The notes under the pieces are model-generated. The model saw nothing but the letters and a program-made list of their open reading frames with translations, ran no database searches and had not been told where the DNA came from. A DNA stretch of 35,949 nucleotides from Pseudomonadota bacterium (GTDB lineage Bacteria > Desulfobacterota > JAPLJL01): positions 1 through 35,949 of the forward strand of contig JAPLJI010000082.1 of NCBI GenBank assembly GCA_026388655.1, written 5' to 3'. Made by a program: the position numbers and the translations under genes. Positions within the stretch are counted from its first letter, which is position 1. Every line of letters begins with the position of its first letter. Positions 10,659 to 33,840 of the stretch are shown here, one piece after another.

Positions 10659-10663
10659 GGTTA

Positions 10664-10961
10664 AAGCCTCCTTTCCTCAGGCACGACCGCCGACGGCAGA
10701 CCGCTGACCGCCGTTAAAACATTTCGTTTAGATCGTTAGTTTCGTTTCCTTGGTTTCTTAGCTTTCCAGCTTTTTTTCTTTCGACACTATGGACACAACG
10801 AACTCAATGGACACTATGGACGCCTTACGTTTTACGCCTCACGTTTTACGGCTGCTTGCTGCTTACTACTTACTCCCTACTGCCTACTGCGCTCTGCGCT
10901 TTTCGTTTCTTGCCTTTGACTGCGGTCGGCGGTCGGCGGTCCGCGGTCAGGGGCTACGCCC
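10664..10961. repeat. Long word mosaic with inverted ends
   Basis: No gene is seen here. The left end has ACCGCCGACGGCAGACCGC; the right end has the inverse family (GCGGTCGGCGGTCGGCGGTC at 10922-10941). Between them lie GACACTATGGACAC words (10784-10820), TTACGTTTTACGCC words (10824-10851), TGCTTACTACTTACTCCC words and GCGCTCTGCGCTTTTC. The same words reappear in the 5' ends of the genes at 14485 and 23193. Confidence 0.8.
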
Positions 10962-11601: not shown

Positions 11602-14061
11602 ATGATGATCCGACCACTTTTACCTGTTTTTATCACCTATAGCCTGGGTATTCTGATCGGCTATTTCCTGGAAATCCCCCGTTTTTCCCCCCTTTACCTT
11701 CTCCTCATCCTGGCGCTGGCACTGGGCTTGCTCGCGCTCAAGTGGCGCAAGCCGGCGCTGGTTTGTTTCGCGTTTTTATTTCTGGTCCTGGGCGTCGATG
11801 CCTCGCGCGGCCGCTTAACCCCCTCCGCCGGGGACCGGTTCCTTTCCGCCCGGGCCCGCGAGGAGGGAAAGTTGATCCTGGAGGGCCATGTTTCCGGGCT
11901 TCCCGAAAATTATCCCGACCATGTCCGTCTGCCCTTCCAGTCCCAATTCCTCCCGGAAGGCGGCCGGCTTTTCCCGGTCTCCGCGGGCCTTTTCCTGAAC
12001 GTGCCCGCCCCCGCCCCCGCTTTCCGGGCGGGGGACCGGGTGCGCCTCCGGGCCTCCCTTCACCCGCCCCGGGGTTTCGGGAACCCGGGCGCTTTCGATT
12101 CCGGCCGCTGGCTCGCCCGGCAGGGGGTTTTCCTGGTCGGCAACATCGCGGGCGCGGACGAGATCGTCCTCCGGGAAGGCCGGGGCGGGAACCCCTGGCT
12201 CAACCGGGTCCAGGAGATCCGCCGGCGGATGGCGGAATTCATGGACGCGGGCGGTTACGGGGAGTCCGGGGAGATCCTGAAAGCCCTGGTGGTGGGGGTG
12301 CGGGCGGGCCTGCCGGACGATCTCTGGAAGGATTTTTCCCGGACGGGGACCGTCCACCTCCTTTCCATCTCGGGACTGCATTTCGCGATCGTGGCCGCGA
12401 TCTTCTTCTTCCTGGTCCGTTTCCTCCTGTCCCGCTCCTCCTGGCTTCTCCTCCGCTTCAACCTTTTCCGGGTCTCGGCCTGGATCTCGATCCTCCCCGT
12501 GATTTTCTACGTCCTGGTGGCCGGGGCCAACATCCCCACCCTCCGGTCCGCCGCCATGATCCTCGCCTACCAGCTGGCCGTGATCCTCGGGCGGGAGCGG
12601 GATGTCTACTCGGCCCTGCTCCTGGCCGCGTTCCTGATCGTGGTCTTTTTTCCTCTTTCCCTCCTCGAGGTGTCCTTCGCGCTCTCCTTCGGCTCCGTCC
12701 TGGCGATTCTCTACCTGACCCCGCGCCTGGCGGAATTTTTCGTTTCCGATCCGGATTTGACCTATCTCCTCGAGCCCTCCCGACTGCGCCGGTACCTGGC
12801 CGGGGTCGGCGCCCTGGCCCTGGTCTCGCTGGCCGCCGCCCTGGGCACGTTTCCGCTGGTGGCCCGCTACTTCAACCTCGTTTCCCTGGTCAGCGTCCCG
12901 GCCAACCTGGTCCTGGTCCCCTGGCTCTCGTTTCTTTCCCTGCCACTCGGTCTCCTGGGGGGCTTTCTGCACTTTATCCTTCCGGAAGCGGCCCGCTTCA
13001 TCCTGGATGTCTCCGCCTGGATCACCGTGCTTTCCCTCGGGGCGGTCCGGTTTTTCAGCCGTCTCCCCGGGGCCTGGTTCCGGGTGACCACCCCCACGCT
13101 CCTGGAGGTCGGCCTCCTTTATCTCGCGGTCCTGGCCTTCGCCAACCTGAAGCGGTCGAGGTGGGCGGGGGCGGTGCTCCCGGCGGCGCTGGCGCTCCTG
13201 GCCCTCGACCAGGCTTACTGGACGGTCAAGCCCCGCTTCGAGCGCGATCTCCGGGTGACCGTCCTGGATGTCGGCCGGGGGGACGCCATCCTGCTCGAGT
13301 TTCCCTTCGGGAAGCGCATTCTCCTCGACGGCGGGGGCTTCGAGGAAAGCGATTTCGACCCGGGGGAGAAGCTGGTGGCCCCCTTCCTCTGGAAGAAGAA
13401 GATCCGGCGGCTGGATTACGTGATCAATTCCCACCCGCACTTCGACCACTTCGGCGGGCTCCGGTTCATCCTGCGGGAGTTTTCCGTCGGGGAGGTCTGG
13501 AAAAACCCGCAGGACAGCTTCTACCGGGAATACCGGGAATTTCTGGGAATCATCCGGGACCGGAAGCTCCCGCTCCGGATCATGGACGCCGCCTCCCCGG
13601 GAGTGGAGATCGGCGGCGTGAGGTTCGAGTTTCTGAACCCGCCCGCGCCGGGATCGGAGGAGGCCCTGGCCCTGGGCGGGGACCAGAACGAGAACTCCCT
13701 GGTTCTCCGGCTGAGCTTCGGCGAGACGAACATCATGCTCGCGTCCGACATCATGGCCCGGGCCGAGGCGAGACTGGCCGCGAAAAATTATCCGCTTTCC
13801 GCGGACGTGCTCAAGGTTCCCCACCACGGGGGGAAGACCTCGAGCACCCCGGGGTTCCTGGCCGCCGTCCACCCCCAGGCGGCGGTGATCACCACCGGCC
13901 CGGAAAACGGCATCCGCCACGTGAGCCTCGAGGTGCTGGAGCGTTACGAGGCCGTCGGCGCCCAAATCTACCGGACCGACCAGACCGGGGCGGTCACGAT
14001 CCGGAGCAACGGGAGAAGGATCACGATCGAAACGTTCCGAGCGGGGGAAAAGCGTCCATAG
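11602..14061 (+). CDS. comEC: ComEC/Rec2-type DNA uptake channel protein
   Basis: An 819-residue protein with the full ComEC order: N-terminal membrane segments, a DUF4131-like soluble region (about 60-195), the polytopic Competence domain (about 220-500, with LLSISGLHFAIVAA and ANIPTLRSAAMI), and a C-terminal metallo-beta-lactamase domain. The latter has VLDVGRGDAILLEFP, the metal motif HPHFDHFGGL (611-620), DQNENSLVLRL and VPHHGGKTSS (near 739), so it looks catalytically intact. ComEC carries single-stranded DNA across the inner membrane during transformation. No other competence gene is in the window. The stop TAG falls in a word repeat (CGTCCATAGTG), so the last codons are repeat-derived. 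Confidence 0.95.
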   Translation: MMIRPLLPVFITYSLGILIGYFLEIPRFSPLYLLLILALALGLLALKWRKPALVCFAFLFLVLGVDASRGRLTPSAGDRFLSARAREEGKLILEGHVSGLPENYPDHVRLPFQSQFLPEGGRLFPVSAGLFLNVPAPAPAFRAGDRVRLRASLHPPRGFGNPGAFDSGRWLARQGVFLVGNIAGADEIVLREGRGGNPWLNRVQEIRRRMAEFMDAGGYGESGEILKALVVGVRAGLPDDLWKDFSRTGTVHLLSISGLHFAIVAAIFFFLVRFLLSRSSWLLLRFNLFRVSAWISILPVIFYVLVAGANIPTLRSAAMILAYQLAVILGRERDVYSALLLAAFLIVVFFPLSLLEVSFALSFGSVLAILYLTPRLAEFFVSDPDLTYLLEPSRLRRYLAGVGALALVSLAAALGTFPLVARYFNLVSLVSVPANLVLVPWLSFLSLPLGLLGGFLHFILPEAARFILDVSAWITVLSLGAVRFFSRLPGAWFRVTTPTLLEVGLLYLAVLAFANLKRSRWAGAVLPAALALLALDQAYWTVKPRFERDLRVTVLDVGRGDAILLEFPFGKRILLDGGGFEESDFDPGEKLVAPFLWKKKIRRLDYVINSHPHFDHFGGLRFILREFSVGEVWKNPQDSFYREYREFLGIIRDRKLPLRIMDAASPGVEIGGVRFEFLNPPAPGSEEALALGGDQNENSLVLRLSFGETNIMLASDIMARAEARLAAKNYPLSADVLKVPHHGGKTSSTPGFLAAVHPQAAVITTGPENGIRHVSLEVLERYEAVGAQIYRTDQTGAVTIRSNGRRITIETFRAGEKRP

Positions 14062-14236
14062 TGTTCCTTGTGTCTATTGTGTCCATTGTGTCAATACGGA
14101 ATTTATGGAGTTAATGAACTGCTTTTTTCTTTGGACGCGACGAACTCAATGGACTCTATAAACTCAATGGACCATTTTTGTTTCTTTCGACTCTATGGAC
14201 ACTATGGACCCAATAGACCCGACGGACATTTATAAT
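14052..14236. repeat. Word palindrome of GACACTATGG family
   Basis: The left arm (about 14055-14093) reads CCATAGTG, TGTGTCTATTGTGTCCATTG; the right arm (about 14190-14226) reads GACTCTATGGACACTATGG and CCAATAGACCC. These are the same words in inverted orientation over roughly 39 bp with mismatches. The centre contains AACTCAATGGACTC words. It lies between comEC and the tRNA gene. Confidence 0.75.
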
Positions 14237-14244
14237 TTTGAAGA

Positions 14245-14332
14245 TGGTGCCGGGAGCGGGAGTTGAACCCGCACAGAGGGTGACCTCCGGGGGATTTTGA
14301 GTCCCCTGCGTCTGCCATTCCGCCATCCCGGC
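14245..14332 (-). tRNA. tRNA-Leu (anticodon CAA)
   Basis: Read on the minus strand, the acceptor GCCGGGA pairs with TCCCGGC, followed by discriminator A and an encoded CCA. The anticodon stem-loop is GGGGA-CTCAAAA-TCCCC, giving anticodon CAA (codon UUG). A class II variable arm (CGGAGGTCACCCTCTG) and a T-arm GCGGG-TTCAACT-CCCGC complete the leucine tRNA. The genomic CCA is intact. Confidence 0.95.
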
Positions 14333-14353: not shown

Positions 14354-14588
14354 TTAACATATTCAGGAGATGAAGGCGAGAGGCAAGAGGCGAGAGATAA
14401 GGCCACCAGAAACAAGAGCACCAGAGCACCAGTAACCAGAGAAACCAGAGCAACCAAAGAAACCAGAAAAATCAGGTAACCCCGATGAACTCAATGAACC
14501 CAACGAACCCGAAGAACCGTCTTACTTCTCACGTCTTACGTCTTGCTTTTTTCTGGACGGCGGTCGGCGGTCTGCTGTCGGCGGTCGT
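14354..14588. repeat. Word mosaic running into the next gene
   Basis: It comprises GAGGCAAGAGGCGAGAG words, then ACCAGAGCACCAGTAACC and GAAACCAGAGCAACCAAAG words, then ATGAACTCAATGAACCC, TTACTTCTCACGTCTTACG and GCGGTCGGCGGTCTGCTG. From 14485 onward these words are the N-terminal coding sequence of the exported TPR-like protein. Confidence 0.75.
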
Positions 14589-15384
14589 TTTTTCCCCCGC
14601 GCCGCGTCCGGCCTTCGCCGGCGGGCTGGTGAAAGCAAACTCGCAGAACCCCGAGGCGCAGAAGCTGATTGACCGGGCCTGGAAGGTGGATAAGAGCGAA
14701 TATACCGCGGAGGTTTTCCGGCAATGCATCCCCTTGATGGAGCAGGCGGACAAGCTCGACCCCCGGAACGCCGAGATCCTCAGCGAACTTTCCCGTTTCA
14801 ACTGGAGCCTGGGCGACGAACTGCCCAAGCAGACTCCCGAGCAGCGGAAAATCCTGGAAGACCTGTACGCCCGGGGCCTCAGATACGCGGAGGAATCCCT
14901 GAAGATCCGGGAGACCTCGGCCGGGAATTACTGGTACGCGGTCAACAAGGGCGCGGGCCTGGAGTTCAGTTCCATCTTCGCGCAGGCCGCCGGTTTCTTC
15001 CCCATCTACAGCCACTACCAGTATGTTCTTAAGAACGAACCCGATTACTATTACGGCGGCCCGGGCCGGCTCTGGACGGAAATCATCTCACGGGTCCCCC
15101 GGAAGGTGGTCGAGATGGTGGGCCGGAAATACGTGGACGAGGCCATGACGGAGATAGACCGGGGCATCGAGAAGGAGCCGCGCTACCTGGACAACTACGT
15201 CTACAAGGCCAGGTTCCTGTACGTATTTTTTCAGGACCGGGAGGAGGTTTTCAAACTCCTGGACCAGGTCTTGAAGGCGGACCCCAAATGTTTTCCCGGG
15301 GAAGACGCTCTCACCCGGGTGGGCCAGCGCAACGGCAGACATCTCTGGAAAAAGATCACCGGTAAAGATTACCCGGCGAAATAG
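14485..15384 (+). CDS. Exported TPR-like protein resembling TRAP-associated TatT family
   Basis: A 299-residue protein with an N-terminal signal peptide: hydrophobic segment VLRLAFFWTAVGGLLSAVVF and a PAFAGG cleavage region near residues 48-52. The mature part is helical, with paired-helix repeats (IPLMEQADKLDPRNAEILSELSRF, RGLRYAEESLKIRE, FKLLDQVLKADPKCFPGEDA). The segment GNYWYAVNKG with later SSIFAQAAG recalls the T component of TRAP-type systems (TatT, Treponema), a TPR-like periplasmic protein; no TRAP transporter is adjacent, so this is tentative. The Shine-Dalgarno (AGGT) is weak. The signal peptide codons are made of the dispersed intergenic words, which is unusual. Confidence 0.7.
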   Translation: MNSMNPTNPKNRLTSHVLRLAFFWTAVGGLLSAVVFSPAPRPAFAGGLVKANSQNPEAQKLIDRAWKVDKSEYTAEVFRQCIPLMEQADKLDPRNAEILSELSRFNWSLGDELPKQTPEQRKILEDLYARGLRYAEESLKIRETSAGNYWYAVNKGAGLEFSSIFAQAAGFFPIYSHYQYVLKNEPDYYYGGPGRLWTEIISRVPRKVVEMVGRKYVDEAMTEIDRGIEKEPRYLDNYVYKARFLYVFFQDREEVFKLLDQVLKADPKCFPGEDALTRVGQRNGRHLWKKITGKDYPAK

Positions 15385-26532: not shown

Positions 26533-28082
26533 AAACTAAAACCCGCTTCCCGTGGTTTGTCTTCGGACTTTCCCTCGTTCTTTTCGGCGGGGGTTTCGTG
26601 AAAACCGGCTCTCCGGCCACGCTCGACCAGGTCCGGGGGGACGTGCAGGTCGTCCCCGCCCTCCGGGCTGGAGGCCCTCCGGGCTGGAAGCCGGACGGTA
26701 AGTCTGACGGTAAGCCCTCCGGGCTGGAAGCGGGGCGGCCGGTCTCGGCCGGGGCCGCGGTCAGCCCGGGTGAATCCGTCCGGGTAGGCCCGGATTCCCA
26801 CGCCCGGCTCCAGCTTCCGGACGGGACCCAGGTCGAAATTTTCGCCCGGACCGAGCTCCTTTTTAATGAGGATCTCTCCGATCCGGACGCCCGGGGCCAC
26901 CTGCTGGGCCTGATCTGGGGGCGGATCCTTTCCCGGGTGGTGCCGCGGAAGGAAGGGGGGGCGCCCTACAAAGTGGTCACCCCGGCCACGGTCTGCGGCG
27001 TGCGGGGGACGGAGTTCGTGGTGGCGGTGGCCGACGACGGGGAAACCCGGGTCGGCGTGGAGAAGGGCGAGGTGGAGGTGACCGGGACGGACGGGAGCGA
27101 GCGGCTCTCCGCGGGGACGGAAACCCGGGTCCTGGTGGGCCAGAGACCCCTGCGGCCGGTCCAGGCCCTGTTGGAAAAGATTGACTGGGAGGGCTGGATC
27201 AACGAGAGAAACCAGCGGCTCCGGGAAAAACTGGCCGAGCGGGTGGCCCTGCTCAACCAAACCGCCCGGGCCATGGATGCCCGGCTGGACCAGATAAACC
27301 GGCGCCTGCAGAAAGTAGAAGCGGACGCCCGCGAGCTCGCCCGGAAGAGACTGGAGGCCGGGGAGCAGGGCGACTGGGGCCGTTTCCAGGAGCTGGGCAC
27401 CCAGCTGAAGACCAAGCTGGACGAGGGGGTGGAGGTCTGCGGGCTCGCGGCCGAGACGCAGGGAAGGCGGATCGTGGCTTTCACCTCCGGGGAGCGGGCG
27501 CTCCAGGGGGTCGCCGGCCCCGGGGTAAAACTGCAGGGCCGGCTCCAGAAACTGGCCGGTGACCTGGACGCCTTCCGCGTTTCGCTCGCGGAAAAGGCCA
27601 AGGCCGACCAGGAAGTTTACGGGAGGCGGATCCAGACCTTTCACGATCTCTTCCAGGATTACGGCCGGAAGGCCCAGGAGCTGCTCGGGAAAACCGGGAC
27701 GGAACAGAAGCTCCTCGAGCGCTGGAACAAGCTTTCCCCGGAAAAGCAGGAGGAGCTGAAGCGGAAATACGAGCAGTGGAAGGGCCTTTCCGAGGAAACC
27801 CGGAAGAAGGTTCTCGACAACTGGGACCGCTTCCAGAAGATGAGCCAGTCCGAGCGGCGGGAGATTATGAAAAATCTCCGGGAATTTGAGCGCCTGGGCC
27901 TGGCGGAGAAGGTCCGGATCAAGGAGCATTTTGAGCACTGGCGCTCGCTCACCCCGGAACGCCGGGAGGAGATCAAACGTAAATTCCGGAAGTTCAAGGC
28001 CCTTTCCCCCGAGGAAAGGGAGGCCGTCCTGGAAAGAATCCGGGACCGGGGGCAATCAGGGCCGCGGCCGCCGGGACGGTAG
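26529..28082 (+). CDS. FecR-domain protein with coiled coil and DUF3106-like repeats
   Basis: A 517-residue protein overlapping the previous gene by ATGA, so translationally coupled. A signal peptide or anchor (WFVFGLSLVLFGGGFV) leads to a FecR domain (about 33-195: VRGDVQVV..., PDSHARLQLPDGTQVEI, KVVTPATVCGVRGTEFVV). A long helical region (about 210-390) follows, then DUF3106-like repeats of the LSPEKQEELKRKYEQWKGLS type up to 505. The FecR domain senses or transmits envelope state, and DUF3106-like parts may bind RNA or protein; their role is not established. The FecR domain is interrupted by about 26 residues encoded by A-family repeat (26659-26738). It is the last gene of the four-gene operon. 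Confidence 0.85.
   Translation: MKTKTRFPWFVFGLSLVLFGGGFVKTGSPATLDQVRGDVQVVPALRAGGPPGWKPDGKSDGKPSGLEAGRPVSAGAAVSPGESVRVGPDSHARLQLPDGTQVEIFARTELLFNEDLSDPDARGHLLGLIWGRILSRVVPRKEGGAPYKVVTPATVCGVRGTEFVVAVADDGETRVGVEKGEVEVTGTDGSERLSAGTETRVLVGQRPLRPVQALLEKIDWEGWINERNQRLREKLAERVALLNQTARAMDARLDQINRRLQKVEADARELARKRLEAGEQGDWGRFQELGTQLKTKLDEGVEVCGLAAETQGRRIVAFTSGERALQGVAGPGVKLQGRLQKLAGDLDAFRVSLAEKAKADQEVYGRRIQTFHDLFQDYGRKAQELLGKTGTEQKLLERWNKLSPEKQEELKRKYEQWKGLSEETRKKVLDNWDRFQKMSQSERREIMKNLREFERLGLAEKVRIKEHFEHWRSLTPERREEIKRKFRKFKALSPEEREAVLERIRDRGQSGPRPPGR
26659..26738 (+). repeat. A-family repeat pieces in frame inside the FecR domain
   Basis: CCCTCCGGGCTGGAGGCCCT (26659-26678) matches copy A1 (6082-6101) exactly, followed by CCTCCGGGCTGGAAGCCGG and GTAAGCCCTCCGGGCTGG units. 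It keeps the frame and encodes residues 44-70 with Gly/Pro/Lys bias. Confidence 0.85.
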
Positions 28083-28292
28083 CGGCCAGGAAAAGAAGGG
28101 TTGCTCGGTTGCTGGGTGGTTGGAAAAGAAAGTAGCAGGTAGCCGCAGGGACGATAATAAATGATTGGGTTATTGGTGATCTGGTCTATGAATGGCATCC
28201 TCCTTCGCTAAGACTACGAAGGACAAGTGGAGCAAAGGGCATAGAGCATAGCGTTAATAACATTTTCTGGTCTCTTTGGTTTTTCTAACAAC
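28083..28292. repeat. Word mosaic downstream of the FecR operon
   Basis: It comprises TTGCTCGGTTGCTGGGTGG, GATTGGGTTATTGGTGATC, a hairpin-like CCTTCGCTAAGACTACGAAG (28202-28221) and AGGGCATAGAGCATAGCG words. Together with the MITE fragment it accounts for the 28083-28527 gap; no gene is seen. Confidence 0.65.
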
Positions 28293-28380
28293 CTAGTGTT
28301 ATGTTGTAGAAAGCCGCCCCTACATAATCAAAACCAGGGATTTTGATCACTGTAAAACCATTATTGAGACACTGCACTAG
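28293..28380. mobile_element. Internally deleted MITE copy
   Basis: This 88-bp relative of the element at 15415-15570 keeps the right end (TTATTGAGACACTGCACTAG), the AAAGCCGCCCCTACATAATC part and a decayed left end (CTAGTGTTATGTTG). The internal GC hairpin is lost. Confidence 0.75.
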
Positions 28381-28527
28381 CTACCTAGCCGCCTTCTTTT
28401 TCTAGCTCTCTGTCCCCCGCGCTTCGCGCCTCTCTCGCTAACCCCTCCAAATATATGGTAATATTCGGTTCACTTTTCCTGATGGGAAAGAGCTGGCTCT
28501 CGACTTTTTGCCAAAGGAGGTTTGCGG

Positions 28528-29859
28528 ATGCCGACCAAGATCGCGGTTATCGGGATGGGTTACGTGGGGGTGCCGATCGCGGCCTTGCTCGCGGATGTGG
28601 AGGGATACGATGTCACCGGCGTCCAGAGGCGCTCGGACCGTTCCGGCTGGAAGATCGAGGTCCTGAATTCCGGGAAGAGCTGTTTCGAGGGGCTGGAGCC
28701 CGGCCTGGACGAGCTCCTGGCCCGGGTGGTCAAGAAGGGGACCTTTCGGGTCACCGATGATTACCAGGTGCTCAAGGACGCGGAAATTATCCTGATTGAC
28801 GTCCAGACCCCCACCGACGCCGACGATCACAGCCCCAGCTACGATTCGGTCAAGGACGTCTCCCGGCAGATCGGGAAATACCTGAGGCAGGGGGTGCTCC
28901 TGATTACCGAGTCCACCGTCGCCCCCGGGACCACCCAGCACGTCATCCGCCCGATCATCGAGACGGAATCCGGGAAGGTGGCCGGCCGGGATTTTCTCCT
29001 CGCCTATTCCTACGAGCGGGTGATGCCCGGCAAGCTGATCGAGTACATCGTGGACATGCCCCGCGTGGTCGGGGGGATCAACCGGGAGAGCGAGCTCAAG
29101 GCGGTGGAGATGTACAAGAAAATCGTGCGGAAGCCCGTTTTTTCGACCGACATCCTGACCGCCGAGGCCGCCAAGACCATGGAAAACGCCTACCGCGACG
29201 TCAACATCGCCTTCGCCAACGAGATGGCCCTGATCTGCGAGAGCCTGGGGATCGACGTCTGGGAAGTGCAGAAGCTCATCAACGCCCGCTCCGACCGGCA
29301 CATGCACCTGCCCGGCGCCGGGGTGGGGGGCCACTGCCTGCCCAAGGATACCTGGCTCCTGCGCTACGGTTTGCGGGCCTACGGCCGGGAGCCCCTCGAG
29401 GCCGAGCTGATCAGCCTGGCCCGGGCCATCAACGACCACATGCCCCTGCACATGGCCGAGCTCGCTCGCCGCTCGATCGAGAGCCACGGGGGGAAGATGG
29501 AAAAGAGCAAGGTGGTGATCCTGGGGGTGGCCTATCTCGAGGATTCCGACGACACCCGCAACACCCCGGCCAGCTCCCTGGCCCTCGAGCTTTCGCGCCT
29601 GGGCTGCCAGGTGGTGGCGCACGACCCCTACGTCAAGGAACTGCCCGGGATCAAAATCCTGCCGGATCTTTACGAGGCCGCCCGGGGCGCCGACGCCCTG
29701 ACCATCGTGACCAAGCACAAGGAATATTACCAGCTGGATTTTGCCCGGCTCAAACAGCTGATGCGGACGCCGGTGATCATTGACGGCCGCCGCATCGTCA
29801 ACGCGGACGAAGCCAAGAAACACGGTTTTATCTTCAGCCTGCTGGGCCGGGGAAGATAA
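28528..29859 (+). CDS. UDP-sugar dehydrogenase (UDP-ManNAc / UDP-GalNAc dehydrogenase type)
   Basis: A 443-residue protein; the ATG at 28528 has AAGGAGG at ideal spacing, better than the TTG two codons earlier. It oxidises the C6 of a UDP-hexosamine twice with NAD to the uronic acid. It has the N-terminal Rossmann motif IAVIGMGYVGVPIAALLA, VQTPTDADDHSPSYDSV, ESTVAPGTT, and the catalytic Cys in GVGGHCLPKDTWLL (near 270), followed by a C-terminal domain with YLEDSDDTRNTPA. The pattern is WecC/WbpO-like rather than UDP-glucose dehydrogenase. The WbpP-like epimerase fragment at the window end could supply UDP-GalNAc. It belongs to surface polysaccharide synthesis. Confidence 0.9.
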   Translation: MPTKIAVIGMGYVGVPIAALLADVEGYDVTGVQRRSDRSGWKIEVLNSGKSCFEGLEPGLDELLARVVKKGTFRVTDDYQVLKDAEIILIDVQTPTDADDHSPSYDSVKDVSRQIGKYLRQGVLLITESTVAPGTTQHVIRPIIETESGKVAGRDFLLAYSYERVMPGKLIEYIVDMPRVVGGINRESELKAVEMYKKIVRKPVFSTDILTAEAAKTMENAYRDVNIAFANEMALICESLGIDVWEVQKLINARSDRHMHLPGAGVGGHCLPKDTWLLRYGLRAYGREPLEAELISLARAINDHMPLHMAELARRSIESHGGKMEKSKVVILGVAYLEDSDDTRNTPASSLALELSRLGCQVVAHDPYVKELPGIKILPDLYEAARGADALTIVTKHKEYYQLDFARLKQLMRTPVIIDGRRIVNADEAKKHGFIFSLLGRGR

Positions 29860-29867
29860 AGCGCCAA

Positions 29868-29908
29868 GCGTCCATAGTGTTCGTAGTGTCCATAGTGTCT
29901 ATAGTGTC
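29868..29908. repeat. Left inverted arm of GACACTATGG words
   Basis: GTCCATAGTGTTCGTAGTG and GTGTCTATAGTGTC words lie inverted relative to the array at 30340-30565. They precede the four-helix-bundle gene by 15 bp. Confidence 0.75.
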
Positions 29909-29923
29909 AAAAGAAAAGATTGA

Positions 29924-30304
29924 ATGAAGATAGAACGATTCGAGGATCTGGATTGTTGGAAGGAAGCCAGGAAATTAGTTAATGAGGTTTATTCGTCCGT
30001 TAAACAAAGTACATCTTTTCAAAAAGATTTCCGTCTGGTTAGCCAAATTACCGACGCGGCAGTATCGAGCATGAGTAATATCGCGGAAGGATTTTCAAGA
30101 AAAACTGATAAGGAATTTATTCAATTTCTTTTTGTCGCGAAAGGCTCGGCTACGGAAGTGCAAAGCGAGACTTATGTAGCCTTGGATCAGAATTACGTTT
30201 TCGAAGAAGATTTTAATAGAATTTATAAATTAGCTGAGAATGTTAATAAACTATGCAGTGGATTAATTACTTATTTAAAAAAATCAAATAAGAAAACTGA
30301 GTGA
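29924..30304 (+). CDS. Four-helix-bundle protein (23S rRNA intervening-sequence protein family)
   Basis: A 126-residue protein of the S23/IVP family: FEDLDCWKEARKLVNEVY, LVSQITDAAVSSMSNIAEGFSR, FIQFLFVAKGSATEVQSETYVALD and a final helix VNKLCSGLITYLKK. These match the family hallmarks (the conserved S.(S/N)IAEG segment and a later helix with E.(E/Q)). Members were first found inside 23S rRNA intervening sequences and also as free genes; the related Avd protein helps diversity-generating retroelements. Their function as free genes is unknown. It is strikingly AT-rich (by eye below 40% GC against over 60% nearby), indicating transfer. It lies between inverted word arms and splits a polysaccharide gene cluster. 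Confidence 0.88.
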   Translation: MKIERFEDLDCWKEARKLVNEVYSSVKQSTSFQKDFRLVSQITDAAVSSMSNIAEGFSRKTDKEFIQFLFVAKGSATEVQSETYVALDQNYVFEEDFNRIYKLAENVNKLCSGLITYLKKSNKKTE

Positions 30305-30339
30305 TTCGACTCAATAGATTTATCCCGAAGGTTTTATCT

Positions 30340-30565
30340 GACGGACACAATAGACACAATGAACTCAATGGACACTATGGACACAATGGACACTATGGAC
30401 ACAATGGACACTATGGACACGATAGACCCTATGGACACTATGGACACTATGGACACTATGGACACTATGGACACTATGGACACTATGGACACTATGGACA
30501 CAATAGACCCTATGGACTGTTTTTGTGACACTATGGACACGATAGACCCAATGGACTCAATGGAC
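30340..30565. repeat. 9-bp tandem array GGACACTAT, upstream of galE
   Basis: About 20 or more near-perfect 9-bp units (GGACACTAT, with GGACACAAT, AGACCCTAT and GAACTCAAT variants) occur, the cleanest run being about 30434-30497. All three frames on both strands are largely stop-free because of the period. It ends 17 bp before the galE start and forms the right, inverted counterpart of 29868-29908. Confidence 0.9.
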
Positions 30566-30582
30566 CTTTCTTCGGAGCGGTC

Positions 30583-31599
30583 ATGAAAATCCTGGTCACC
30601 GGCGGAGCCGGGTACATCGGTTCCCACACCGTTAAAATGCTGGGCCGGAAACGGCACGAGATCTTGACCGTCGACAACCTCTCCACCGGCCACCGCGAGG
30701 CCGTTCTTTTCGGGGGTTTCGAAAAAGGCGACATCCGCGACCGGGCCTTCCTGGACCGGGTTTTTCCCGCCTTCCGCCCGGAGGCGCTGATCCACTTCGC
30801 CGCGAGCGCGGTGGTTCCCGAGTCGGTGGAGAACCCCCTCCTTTACTGGGAAAACAATATTTCCGGCACGGTCACCCTCCTGCAGGCGGCGGTCCGGCAC
30901 CAGGTGAGGATGGCGGTGTTCTCCTCGAGCGCCGCGGTCTACGGCGAGCCCGAGCGGGTCCCGATCACCGAGGATCATCCCCAGCGGCCCGCCAATCCCT
31001 ACGGGATGACCAAGCTGGTGGGGGAGCAGATCCTGGCCGATTGCGACCAGGCCTACGGGCTGAAATCGGTTTCCCTCCGCTATTTCAACGCCGCCGGCGT
31101 CGACCCGGAGGGGGAGTTGGGCGAAGACCGGGAGGTGGAGACCCACCTGATCCCGGTCGTCCTCAAGGCGGCCGCCCGGGTCAAGAGCGGGAAGGCCGCA
31201 GGCCCCGAGCATAGTCGAGGGGGCGGGGCCGTGGTCCGTATTTTCGGCAGTGACTATCCCACCCCGGACGGGACCTGCGTCCGCGATTACATCCACGTAA
31301 ACGACCTGGCCCAGGCCCACATCCTGGCCCTGGAATGGCTCTCCCGGGAAAGGCGGAGCGAGGTCTTCAACCTGGGCAACGGCCGGGGCTACTCGGTCCG
31401 CCAGGTGGTGGAGGCGGCCCGCCGGGTCACGGGCGTTCGCATTCCCAGCCGGGACGAACCGCGCCGGCCCGGAGACCCGGCCGAGCTGGTCGCCGGCTCG
31501 GAGAAGATCCAGAAGGTCCTGGGCTGGAAGGCGGTTATTCCCGAGCTGGAAAAGATCATCGCCACCTCCTGGGGCTACTTCTCCAAGACCGCGGGATAG
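30583..31599 (+). CDS. galE: UDP-glucose 4-epimerase
   Basis: A 338-residue protein with GGAG six bases before the ATG. It interconverts UDP-glucose and UDP-galactose with tightly bound NAD. The Rossmann motif GGAGYIGSH is at 7-15, then TVDNLSTGHREAV, the active-site SSSAAVYGEP, YGMTK (Tyr140 and Lys144), RYFNAAGVDP and FGSDYPTPDGTCVRDYIHVNDLA. Between VLKAAARVK and VRIFGSDY about 14 extra residues (GKAAGPEHSRGGGA) are present that E. coli GalE lacks; their DNA contains a repeat-like CCCCGAGCATAGTCGAGGGG. It serves the sugar cluster. Confidence 0.94.
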   Translation: MKILVTGGAGYIGSHTVKMLGRKRHEILTVDNLSTGHREAVLFGGFEKGDIRDRAFLDRVFPAFRPEALIHFAASAVVPESVENPLLYWENNISGTVTLLQAAVRHQVRMAVFSSSAAVYGEPERVPITEDHPQRPANPYGMTKLVGEQILADCDQAYGLKSVSLRYFNAAGVDPEGELGEDREVETHLIPVVLKAAARVKSGKAAGPEHSRGGGAVVRIFGSDYPTPDGTCVRDYIHVNDLAQAHILALEWLSRERRSEVFNLGNGRGYSVRQVVEAARRVTGVRIPSRDEPRRPGDPAELVAGSEKIQKVLGWKAVIPELEKIIATSWGYFSKTAG

Positions 31600-31680
31600 A
31601 ATTTGTCCTTCCGCCCGTGGTCTAATATAATAAATACTAATCGTGACAATGATTCGCCTGGAAGCATTAAAGGAAAGCTT

Positions 31681-31765
31681 AAAGTCAAAAGTTCAAATGC
31701 CCAAGCCCAAAGGTCAAATAAATGTCCAAAATAAAAGTTCAAATGCTTAAGTTCAAATCATATGT
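31681..31765. repeat. C-family fragment
   Basis: AAGTTCAAATGCCCAAGCCC and AAAGGTCAAATAAATGTCC words resemble the left arm of C2, without the right arm or the centre. It is one of several repeats in the 31600-32343 gap, which has no recognisable gene; 31600-31680 and 32246-32343 hold only AT-rich and word-like DNA. Confidence 0.7.
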
Positions 31766-31835
31766 GTCCAAATTGGATTGTCTCCTCCGAAGAAAAACAG
31801 ACCATGAGACTTGAATTTGAAAATCATTGATTTGG

Positions 31836-31991
31836 CCCCCTCTCCTCTCCGAGCCGTAGGCTCCTACCCTCCCTCCGGGCTGGAAGCGGGGCTGGAAGCG
31901 GAGCCGGAAGCGGAGCCGGAGGCCCAACCCTCTCCTTCAGGACGAACCTTCAGGACAAGTCCCTCGAGGGGAGAGGAAAAGGGTGAGGGTG
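31836..31991. repeat. GC-rich GGCTGGAAGC element, copy A2
   Basis: It has the same order as A1: CTCTCCGAGCCGTAGGCTCC, CCTCCGGGCTGGAAGCGGGG, CAGGACGAACCTTCAGGACA, TCCCTCGAGGGGAGAGG, ending GGGTGAGGGTG. It is shorter than A1 because fewer internal units are present. Confidence 0.85.
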
Positions 31992-32020
31992 AAAAAATTA
32001 AGTTTTATTTTTAGCTTGTA

Positions 32021-32245
32021 ATTCCCCGTGATCTTGCCATGGGGTTACCTTATTCCGTCATTCCGCACTTGATGCGGAATCCAGTTGTTTTTTCTGGATC
32101 CCCGCTTTCGCGGGGATGACAGATGGAGAAGTGGATTCCCGCTGGAGTTTATCCCGCACTCTGATGCGGGACGGGAATGAAAACCCAGAGCCTAAGAATC
32201 GTTTTGAGAAAGATACCCCGCGGTCTTGGCGCGGGGAGCTTCATT
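32021..32245. repeat. Nested palindromic intergenic element, copy B2
   Basis: The outer frame (GGGGTTACCTTATT near 32040 and AGATACCCCGCGG near 32210) matches B1 in the same orientation. The inner 49-base module 32132-32180 is inverted relative to B1. It also has the perfect hairpin ATCCCCGCTTTCGCGGGGAT. Confidence 0.85.
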
Positions 32246-32343
32246 TTTGGTTTTTTGGGCTTATTTTGAATTTTGGATTTTGAAATTTGAATTTCAAGTT
32301 AGAGGTGCTTGGTCATTGGTGTTTTGCGTAAGGGGGTTTTGGC

Positions 32344-33840
32344 ATGAATAAAGTCAAGGAAGAGGGGCCGTTCACCTTTGTGGTCATTCTGGCCGGGGGC
32401 GCGGGTACGCGCTTCTGGCCGCTTTCCCGGGAAAAGATGCCCAAGCAGTTTCTCAGCCTGATCGGGGAGGAGTCCCTCCTCCAGCAGACCGTCAGCCGGG
32501 TCCGCGGCCTGACCCCGCCGGAGCGGATGATCGTGGTCACGAGCAAGTCCCAGGTCGAGGAAACCCTGCGCCAGCTCGCGCCCAATCCCCGGGGAAAGGA
32601 TCACCAACTCTGCCCGGTGATCATCGAGCCCCGCGCGCTCAACACCGCCCCCGCCATCGGCCTGGCCGCGGTTTTCGTCCGCCGCGTCGATCCCGATGGC
32701 GTGATGGTGGTCCTGCCCTCCGACCACTACATCCGCGACCAGGAGAAATTCTCCCGGGACATCGAGAACGCCATCCGGATCGCCCAGGAGGGCCACCTCG
32801 TCACCCTGGGCATTCCTCCCTCCCGTCCCGAGACCGGGTTCGGCTACATCGAGTTTGACGCCTCCACCCCGGGCAAAAACGGCTACCGGCCGGTGCTTTC
32901 CTTCCAGGAAAAGCCCAACCTGAAGACCGCCCAGGGTTACCTCTCCAAGGGCAACTATCTCTGGAACTCGGGGATGTTCGTCTGGAAAGCGGCGGCCATT
33001 CTGACCGAGATCGGCCGGCACCTCCCCGGGCTCGCCCGGGGCCTGGCCCGGGTTGAGCAGGTGATCAACGAGGTGGGCGGGACCACCTATCCCAACGCCA
33101 CCGACCTCCTGGAGACCCGGGAGATGAACCAGGCGATCGAGGAGATTTACCAGGAGATCGAACCGATCTCCATTGATTACGGGGTGATGGAGAAGTCCCG
33201 GAACGTGGTGGTGGTGCCGGCCAGCTTTGACTGGTCGGACGTCGGTTCCTTCAGCGCTCTTTTCGACCTTCTGCCCCAGGACGGGCAGGGGAACATCATC
33301 TCCGGCCGGGTCTTCGACCTCGAGAGCGAGAACTCCCTGATCCGCGGCGACCGCCGGCTCCTGGCCACCCTGGGCCTCCGGGACATGATCGTGGTCGACA
33401 CCGAGGACGCGCTCCTGGTCTGCTCCCGCGACCGGGCCCAGGAGGTGAGGAGGATCGTCGAGCAGATCAAGGACAAGGGTTTCGAGGAATCCATCATCCA
33501 CCGGACCGTGAAGCGTCCCTGGGGCTCCTACACGGTTCTCGACCAGGGCGACAAGTTCAAGGTCAAGCGGGTGGTGGTCAATCCCACCTCCCGCCTTTCC
33601 CTCCAGATCCACCATCACCGGAGCGAGCACTGGGTGATCGTCTCCGGCACCGCCCGGGTCACGGTGGCGGACAAGATTTTCGACCTCCATCCCGGCGAGA
33701 GCACCTTCGTTCCGGCCTCGGCCCGCCACCGGCTGGAAAATCCCGGGATCATCCCGGTGGTGATCGTGGAGGCCCAGTACGGCGAGTACCTGGGCGAGGA
33801 CGACATCGTTCGGTTCGAGGACGACTACGGAAGAGTGTAG
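32344..33840 (+). CDS. manC: Mannose-1-phosphate guanylyltransferase / mannose-6-phosphate isomerase (bifunctional type)
   Basis: A 498-residue protein; the upstream GGGGG is a possible Shine-Dalgarno. It makes GDP-mannose from mannose-1-phosphate. The nucleotidyltransferase domain begins ILAGGAGTRFWPLSREKMPK (the AlgA/ManC signature with pyrophosphorylase Arg and Lys) and continues with VVLPSDHYIRD, FGYIEFD, SFQEKPN, NSGMFVWKA and SFDWSDVGSF. The C-terminal cupin (VKRPWGSYTVLDQG..., LQIHHHRSEHWVIVSGTARV, FVPASARHRLEN) is the isomerase-like domain. It precedes phosphomannomutase, together a complete mannose-6-phosphate to GDP-mannose route for polysaccharide. Confidence 0.95.
   Translation: MNKVKEEGPFTFVVILAGGAGTRFWPLSREKMPKQFLSLIGEESLLQQTVSRVRGLTPPERMIVVTSKSQVEETLRQLAPNPRGKDHQLCPVIIEPRALNTAPAIGLAAVFVRRVDPDGVMVVLPSDHYIRDQEKFSRDIENAIRIAQEGHLVTLGIPPSRPETGFGYIEFDASTPGKNGYRPVLSFQEKPNLKTAQGYLSKGNYLWNSGMFVWKAAAILTEIGRHLPGLARGLARVEQVINEVGGTTYPNATDLLETREMNQAIEEIYQEIEPISIDYGVMEKSRNVVVVPASFDWSDVGSFSALFDLLPQDGQGNIISGRVFDLESENSLIRGDRRLLATLGLRDMIVVDTEDALLVCSRDRAQEVRRIVEQIKDKGFEESIIHRTVKRPWGSYTVLDQGDKFKVKRVVVNPTSRLSLQIHHHRSEHWVIVSGTARVTVADKIFDLHPGESTFVPASARHRLENPGIIPVVIVEAQYGEYLGEDDIVRFEDDYGRV

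Follow-up and report, generated by a model that had tools for sequence, protein, structure and literature searches.

Proteins of the IVP/S23 family have been catalogued for decades as function-unknown proteins of rRNA intervening sequences (IVS). The IVS in the 23S rRNA of Coxiella comprises a 28-bp terminal inverted repeat, the S23p ORF, and heptamers before the start codon that vary among strains; its mobility has been put forward only as a hypothesis (PMC4990558). PF05635 proteins are also common near diversity-generating retroelements (DGRs) (PMC10053308), and the 23S rRNA IVP has been listed among CRISPR-linked genes (PMC10910872). The heptamers GGGAATC of Xanthomonas and GGGGA(C/T)T of Nostoc are intergenic and often arranged as convergent inverted pairs, 70 of which occur in X. 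campestris; their origin was left unexplained and no gene was named (PMC4692102). The same holds for the TAACTGA heptamers of Beggiatoaceae, for which a repeat-binding protein was suggested as a mobile element (PMC4679880). No report tying IVP genes in general to word arrays or to transposition was found in the open literature, outside which most subscription journals lie.

The locus considered here lies in a stretch of 35,949 nucleotides (the window) from a Pseudomonadota bacterium. With a probability of about 0.7, it is regarded as one copy of a transposable unit of ~0.5-0.7 kb, in which an IVP gene is placed between inverted arrays of a short word. Such arm-IVP-arm units are apparently an undescribed and widespread kind of mobile DNA, occurring in many bacterial phyla, with IVP as the sole gene and no recognisable transposase. 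They share with the 23S rRNA IVS of Coxiella and Leptospira the protein family and the stem-forming terminal inverted repeats round an ORF, and in Coxiella also the heptamers upstream of the start. Unlike the IVS, they lie between protein genes, are multi-copy, carry a word that differs at nearly every locus, and have filled and empty sites as well as deletion derivatives with target duplications (TSDs). Terminal inverted repeats, TSDs (in the G005 family and probably at one Nostoc site), deletion derivatives, and intergenic insertion, as seen in the G005 family and at the Nostoc sites described below, are also features of MITEs and insertion sequences, but the present units have no transposase ORF, IVP is their only gene, and their ends are degenerate word arrays differing by element. 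In REP/RAYT systems (REPINs), similarly, a cognate protein travels with its short, palindromic intergenic repeat; however, the protein family here is a different one, the word arrays are not single REP hairpins, and TSDs are present, most clearly in the G005 family.

The IVP gene of the window and its arms

An earlier note on this DNA had described a four-helix-bundle gene placed between a left arm and a right array of the same words in opposite orientation, far more AT-rich than its surroundings and interrupting sugar-nucleotide genes. All three points were confirmed (Table 1). The arms are 87% complementary across 47 nt. The G+C content is 35% in the gene and 60% in the window, and GC3 is 0.32 as compared with 0.89 and 0.86 in the neighbour genes. 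A dehydrogenase lies upstream and an epimerase downstream, with GDP-mannose pyrophosphorylase and PGM/PMM farther along. No rRNA match was found in 28000-32500, and the unit lies outside any 23S rRNA gene.

Table 1. Features of the window that bear on the IVP unit and its word family (strand "." for an inverted pair).
Feature	Position	Strand	Description
UDP-glucose/GDP-mannose dehydrogenase	28522..29859	+	upstream flank, host gene; profile match
Left arm	29867..29908	-	five 9-nt words GTCCATAGT / GTTCGTAGT / GTCCATAGT / GTCTATAGT / GTC; GTCCATAGT frame
IVP/S23 four-helix-bundle gene	29924..30304	+	126 aa, AT-rich; PF05635 and TIGR02436 profile matches
Expanded right array of 9-nt words	30343..30512	+	alignment to left arm
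Outer right arm	30526..30566	+	~41 nt, length close to that of left arm; separated from expanded array by ctgtttttgt
galE-like epimerase	30583..31599	+	downstream flank, host gene; profile match
Gene-less inverted pair, window word family	14053..14229	.	left 14053-14094; right 14133-14173 and 14190-14229
Solo right arm, window word family	10783..10822	+	word search

The protein matches PF05635 with E=2.9e-30 and 105 bits (curated cut-off 33.8) and TIGR02436 with E=1.3e-28 and 99 bits (curated cut-off 24). It is the sole ORF between the arms, where a transposase gene of the unit's own is absent. In the left arm, the core GTY recurs at each 9 nt on the plus strand. The right array as a whole (30343-30566) holds ~24 words of 9 nt in the GGACACTAT frame, inverted relative to the left arm; in 20 words counted, AC at positions 3-4, which complements the GTY core, and T at position 9 are invariant. 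This array, which includes a run of seven identical words, has clearly grown by slippage. Dinucleotide shuffles predict 0.01 occurrences of GACACTATGG in the window, which has 15. The element has an RNA fold with z=-5.8 relative to shuffles, in which the arms form a long stem, so that the ORF lies within stem-forming terminal inverted repeats as in the 23S rRNA IVS. An Rfam scan returned a single match, a chance miRNA, and the array is not of the CRISPR kind, its 9-mers following head-to-tail without unique spacers. No target duplication is visible at this copy.

Modelled with AlphaFold2 (pLDDT 96.5), the protein resembles XCC0516 (2gsc, pentameric) with a TM score of 0.84, and 2rld was matched as well. 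The match to the DGR protein Avd (4dwl) is weaker, with TM 0.72 and 7% identity, and still within the Avd fold (PDB 4dwl, 8ub7). Together with the frequency of PF05635 proteins near DGRs, this likeness of fold could favour a retroelement, in which IVP would take the part of Avd, partnered by a reverse transcriptase in cis or trans; the earlier note had hinted at such a link. No match to reverse transcriptase (PF00078) was found in this genome (a 94% complete draft), and the enzyme is also absent from several IVP-rich relatives. A natural control is provided by an IVP-like gene that does adjoin a reverse transcriptase, in genome G032 (L044, C1:2048598-2048900); it is a probable true DGR Avd and has no word arms. 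Because IVP-rich genomes, this one included, lack reverse transcriptase, the window element is not a DGR, and the retroelement reading was rejected as highly improbable.

IVP proteins evolve under purifying selection, as read from dN/dS values of 0.06-0.18. A protein of 250-340 aa with a weak IVP-like stretch (26-32 bits) is encoded without arms in G000:C138 (L016 1197-2220), and similar ones occur in G002, G021, and G022; together they may make up a larger domain family to which IVP is related.

The word family of the window has further copies that the earlier reader had overlooked, namely the gene-less pair and the solo right arm of Table 1. The gene-less pair adjoins tRNA-Leu (14245-14332), and its left end is nearly identical to that of the IVP element. 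The ~42-nt left end of the IVP arm recurs in 14053-14094, in G000:C162, and in G000:C4. Several copies are therefore present in this genome: one with the gene (29867-30566), the gene-less 14053-14229 and C162:26813-26924, the C4 copy, and solo or tandem arms. The C162 copy, apparently the window element with its interior deleted, is common to this genome and the sister genome G002. It is again a gene-less inverted pair (L018 2027-2130; L259), and since it is ~97% identical to its G002 counterpart vs 88% for the flanks, this hairpin may have kept a function. At the site of 14053-14229, the sister genomes hold other word families. Other intergenic "word salads" without an IVP gene nearby are found in the window at 10660-10960, 14400-14600, 31660-31760, and 31850-31990, with words such as accagagaaacc, ggcggtcggcggtc, aaagttcaaatg, and gctggaagcgg; they are perhaps remains of other word families.

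The earlier note had recommended a search for empty sites in sister strains. In G002 the dehydrogenase is followed directly by the epimerase, without IVP, and in G001 there is no IVP upstream of the orthologous epimerase, where the contig ends before the dehydrogenase. The gene is thus missing from the locus in both sisters, but the site is not a clean empty one, because both hold other word arrays in the gap. These are further gene-less word families, GGAGATNG and GACCGCNG, in the dehydrogenase-epimerase gap of G002 (L206 2515-2780) and upstream of the G001 epimerase (L207 2120-2384). The GACCGC word of these sister regions is also the arm of a resident IVP of G001 (L037). Dehydrogenase-epimerase junctions seem to have been visited repeatedly by different word families.

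Inverted word arrays at other IVP genes

This genome (3.56 Mb) has eight PF05635 matches, and all full-length IVP genes read in it are flanked by inverted word arrays, the word differing by subfamily, with the words TTTGACCTT (L009), AGTTAAGAAGCCTA (L011), and GATTGACGA (L013-L015). IVP genes are generally multi-copy and patchy, with many pseudogenes. Genome contigs were scanned with a profile built from an alignment of the window IVP subfamily, and arms were scored by aligning the upstream flank of each gene to the reverse complement of its downstream flank, a score of at least 30 counting as armed. Since the 3' end of the ORF often contains the right arm, the right flank was taken from the domain end onward. 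The sample of 158 IVP genes drew on the phylum (51), on named genomes spread over many phyla (81), and on viral contigs (26). Arms were present at 128 of the 158 loci (43/51, 62/81, and 23/26, respectively). Cross-locus pairs reached this score in 1-5% of cases and control ORFs in 2-15%; in the phylum set, IVP copies nearby and further word arrays push the control rates up. With inverted arms specific to their locus at most of 158 independent IVP loci, a gene that merely happens to sit among slippage-born minisatellites, as the seven identical words in a row at the window might suggest, can be regarded as excluded. In six cultured isolates, 15 of 25 IVP loci had arms (control 1%), and one of these isolates, Flavobacterium akiainvivens, has eight IVP genes, seven of them armed by eye or score. 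An annotated phage collection yielded no IVP matches.

The inspection of other four-helix-bundle genes proposed in the earlier note has thus revealed arms in many phyla. Copies without words, which that note had taken as grounds for refutation, amount to about a fifth (~19% at the cut-off used), some of these having the right arm within the ORF; the majority are armed. The other ground it had named, a gene conserved at its locus without words, was approached by a few locus-conserved copies only (L125, L127-L129), and these retain their arms. Like the C162 pair in G002, they have been inherited vertically and are not obviously mobile now.

The word is constant inside an element and different between elements at nearly every site compared. 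Among 107 loci, its period is 7 (or 14) in 75, 9 in 15, and 8 in 7. In the subfamily of the window, the upstream arm carries GTY each 7-10 nt, whatever the other letters of the word, and other IVP subfamilies have other cores, including AAGGCAG, AGGGAGT, TCGGC, and GAATGCG. The density of GTY in the arm is 0.087, as against 0.012 for its reverse complement; therefore, the orientation of the word is fixed relative to the gene. On a tree of the 128 armed proteins, GTY and non-GTY labels change 20 times (shuffled mean 41, minimum 31), with a class cut-off chosen post hoc on data already seen; on this tree the word core tracks the IVP protein clade. At L203 and L183 the arms are very long and consist of words and small palindromes (GCTTGCTACGCAAGC, CGCTGCGCTG) in alternation.

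Filled and empty sites and deletion derivatives

Cyanobacterial plasmids provided four pairs of filled and empty sites in which the insert is arm-IVP-arm. In a Nostoc plasmid backbone, one junction (A) is empty in five plasmids, where the gap measures 4 nt, and occupied in three by the unit, bordered by the direct repeat [AG]G[AG]TTCTA, which is likely a target duplication. The adjacent junction of this backbone is filled in one further plasmid by an IVP unlike the first, with words of its own; eight plasmids lack it. In Picosynechococcus PCC 7003, a unit lies between cas10 and cmr3, where PCC 7002 has 12 nt, and in Nostoc edaphicum one lies between ribonucleotide reductase genes, where Calothrix NIES-4105 has none. 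In these alignments, arm-gene-arm is what varies between presence and absence at orthologous sites. Terminal inverted repeats are found at the insert ends both here and in the family described next.

Genome G005, of the same phylum, contains an IVP-derived element with an internal deletion in ~41 copies or fragments, most of them without the gene. The full derivatives are ~265 nt long and have heptameric words and the common ends CAAGCTGTGCGGTTAG... and ...CTAACCGCACAGGTCG, which form terminal inverted repeats. An 8-bp target duplication with at least 7/8 matches borders 10 of the 20 two-ended copies, compared with a mean of 1.65 and a maximum of 6 in 5000 shuffles. As judged from these copies, derivatives that have lost internal sequence but still possess the arms have multiplied in this one genome and created target duplications of 8 bp. 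Clear TSDs are limited to this single family; at 127 other loci, the longest direct repeat averaged 6.08 vs 5.71, an excess that is small because element ends are undefined within long arrays. The mobile unit of IVP gene and word palindrome envisaged in the earlier note is independently supported by the arms in many phyla, the filled and empty sites, and these multicopy derivatives.

The G005 family also bears on another interpretation, in which an unrelated transposase would mobilise the word arms, themselves ordinary MITE-like ends, with IVP as cargo or hitchhiker. Terminal inverted repeats with an 8-bp TSD are typical of DDE transposition, and the majority of the G005 copies are gene-less. 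Among 39 genomes, 18 of the 25 that have IVP contain Y1 transposases, as do 3 of the 14 that lack it, a difference that may reflect only a general load of mobile DNA; IS200-type Y1 elements make no TSD. The correspondence between word core and protein clade argues against mere cargo, as does the fact that IVP is the gene between the arms in every phylum examined, with the protein conserved. A search of the fragmentary G005 assembly (~370 contigs) for longer elements that share the ends of its derivatives and encode a transposase found none. This interpretation is considered unlikely.

A role at the RNA level has a lower probability still and appears improbable. IVP would bind the mRNA hairpin of the arms and control its own expression or that of its neighbours, the unit being spread by recombination. 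The strong RNA fold, the single orientation of the words relative to the gene, the insertions between operon genes, and the gene-less copy better conserved than its flanks are consistent with such regulation, which leaves unexplained the filled and empty sites with a direct repeat, the multicopy deletion derivatives, and their TSDs.

Proposed mechanism and relation to described repeats

For a transposable unit, the following mechanism can be inferred. IVP, a homopentameric ring in the solved relative, would bind the word core on both arms (GTY each 7-10 nt in the window subfamily), either as DNA ends or as an RNA or single-stranded DNA hairpin, and would pair the ends. Insertion would be staggered, with a TSD of ~8 bp, as in transposition of the TIR/TSD type. 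Gene-less copies would be moved in trans and give rise to the intergenic word salad of these genomes. The enzyme that cuts and joins is not a reverse transcriptase; it could be a nuclease or transposase of the host or of a transposon, or an unrecognised activity of IVP, in which we know of no catalytic motif. In some 23S rRNA genes the IVS appears to be such a unit inserted in rRNA, its arms presumably trimmed by RNase III.

A wider proposal, to which slightly less than even odds are given, is that these units form a new class of mobile element. The pentameric IVP would serve as end-recognition factor, and possibly as recombinase, with word arrays specific to each subfamily as the ends. Short-word intergenic repeats of many bacteria, the heptameric ones included, would derive from this class, as would the 23S rRNA IVS that bear IVP, and IVP-CRISPR links would be explained as insertions in cas operons. 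A system that transposes without any recognisable transposase would be new. As a rule the sole gene of a mobile unit whose word ends look programmable, IVP/S23 would gain a biological context, and two old questions, the mobility of the IVS and the role of S23p, become testable.

The heptameric intergenic repeats of Xanthomonas, Nostoc, Beggiatoaceae, and cyanobacteria (STRR) resemble the arms in being short, intergenic, and often arranged as convergent inverted pairs, but the repeat papers name no gene, whereas the present arms flank IVP. The heptamers of Xanthomonas, Nostoc, and Beggiatoaceae are predicted to be arms of IVP units, which would offer one explanation for all three. The solved IVP protein XCC0516 comes from the same X. 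campestris as the GGGAATC repeats.

IVP units can also be picked up by repeat-based mining for CRISPR, which calls for caution. Two were observed inside CRISPR-Cas operons, one on the PCC 7003 plasmid (L244 2486-2842, cas10/cmr3) and one in Anabaena sp. 90 (L262 1486-1854, cas6/cas4), and such insertions may account for the listing of the 23S rRNA IVP among CRISPR-linked genes.
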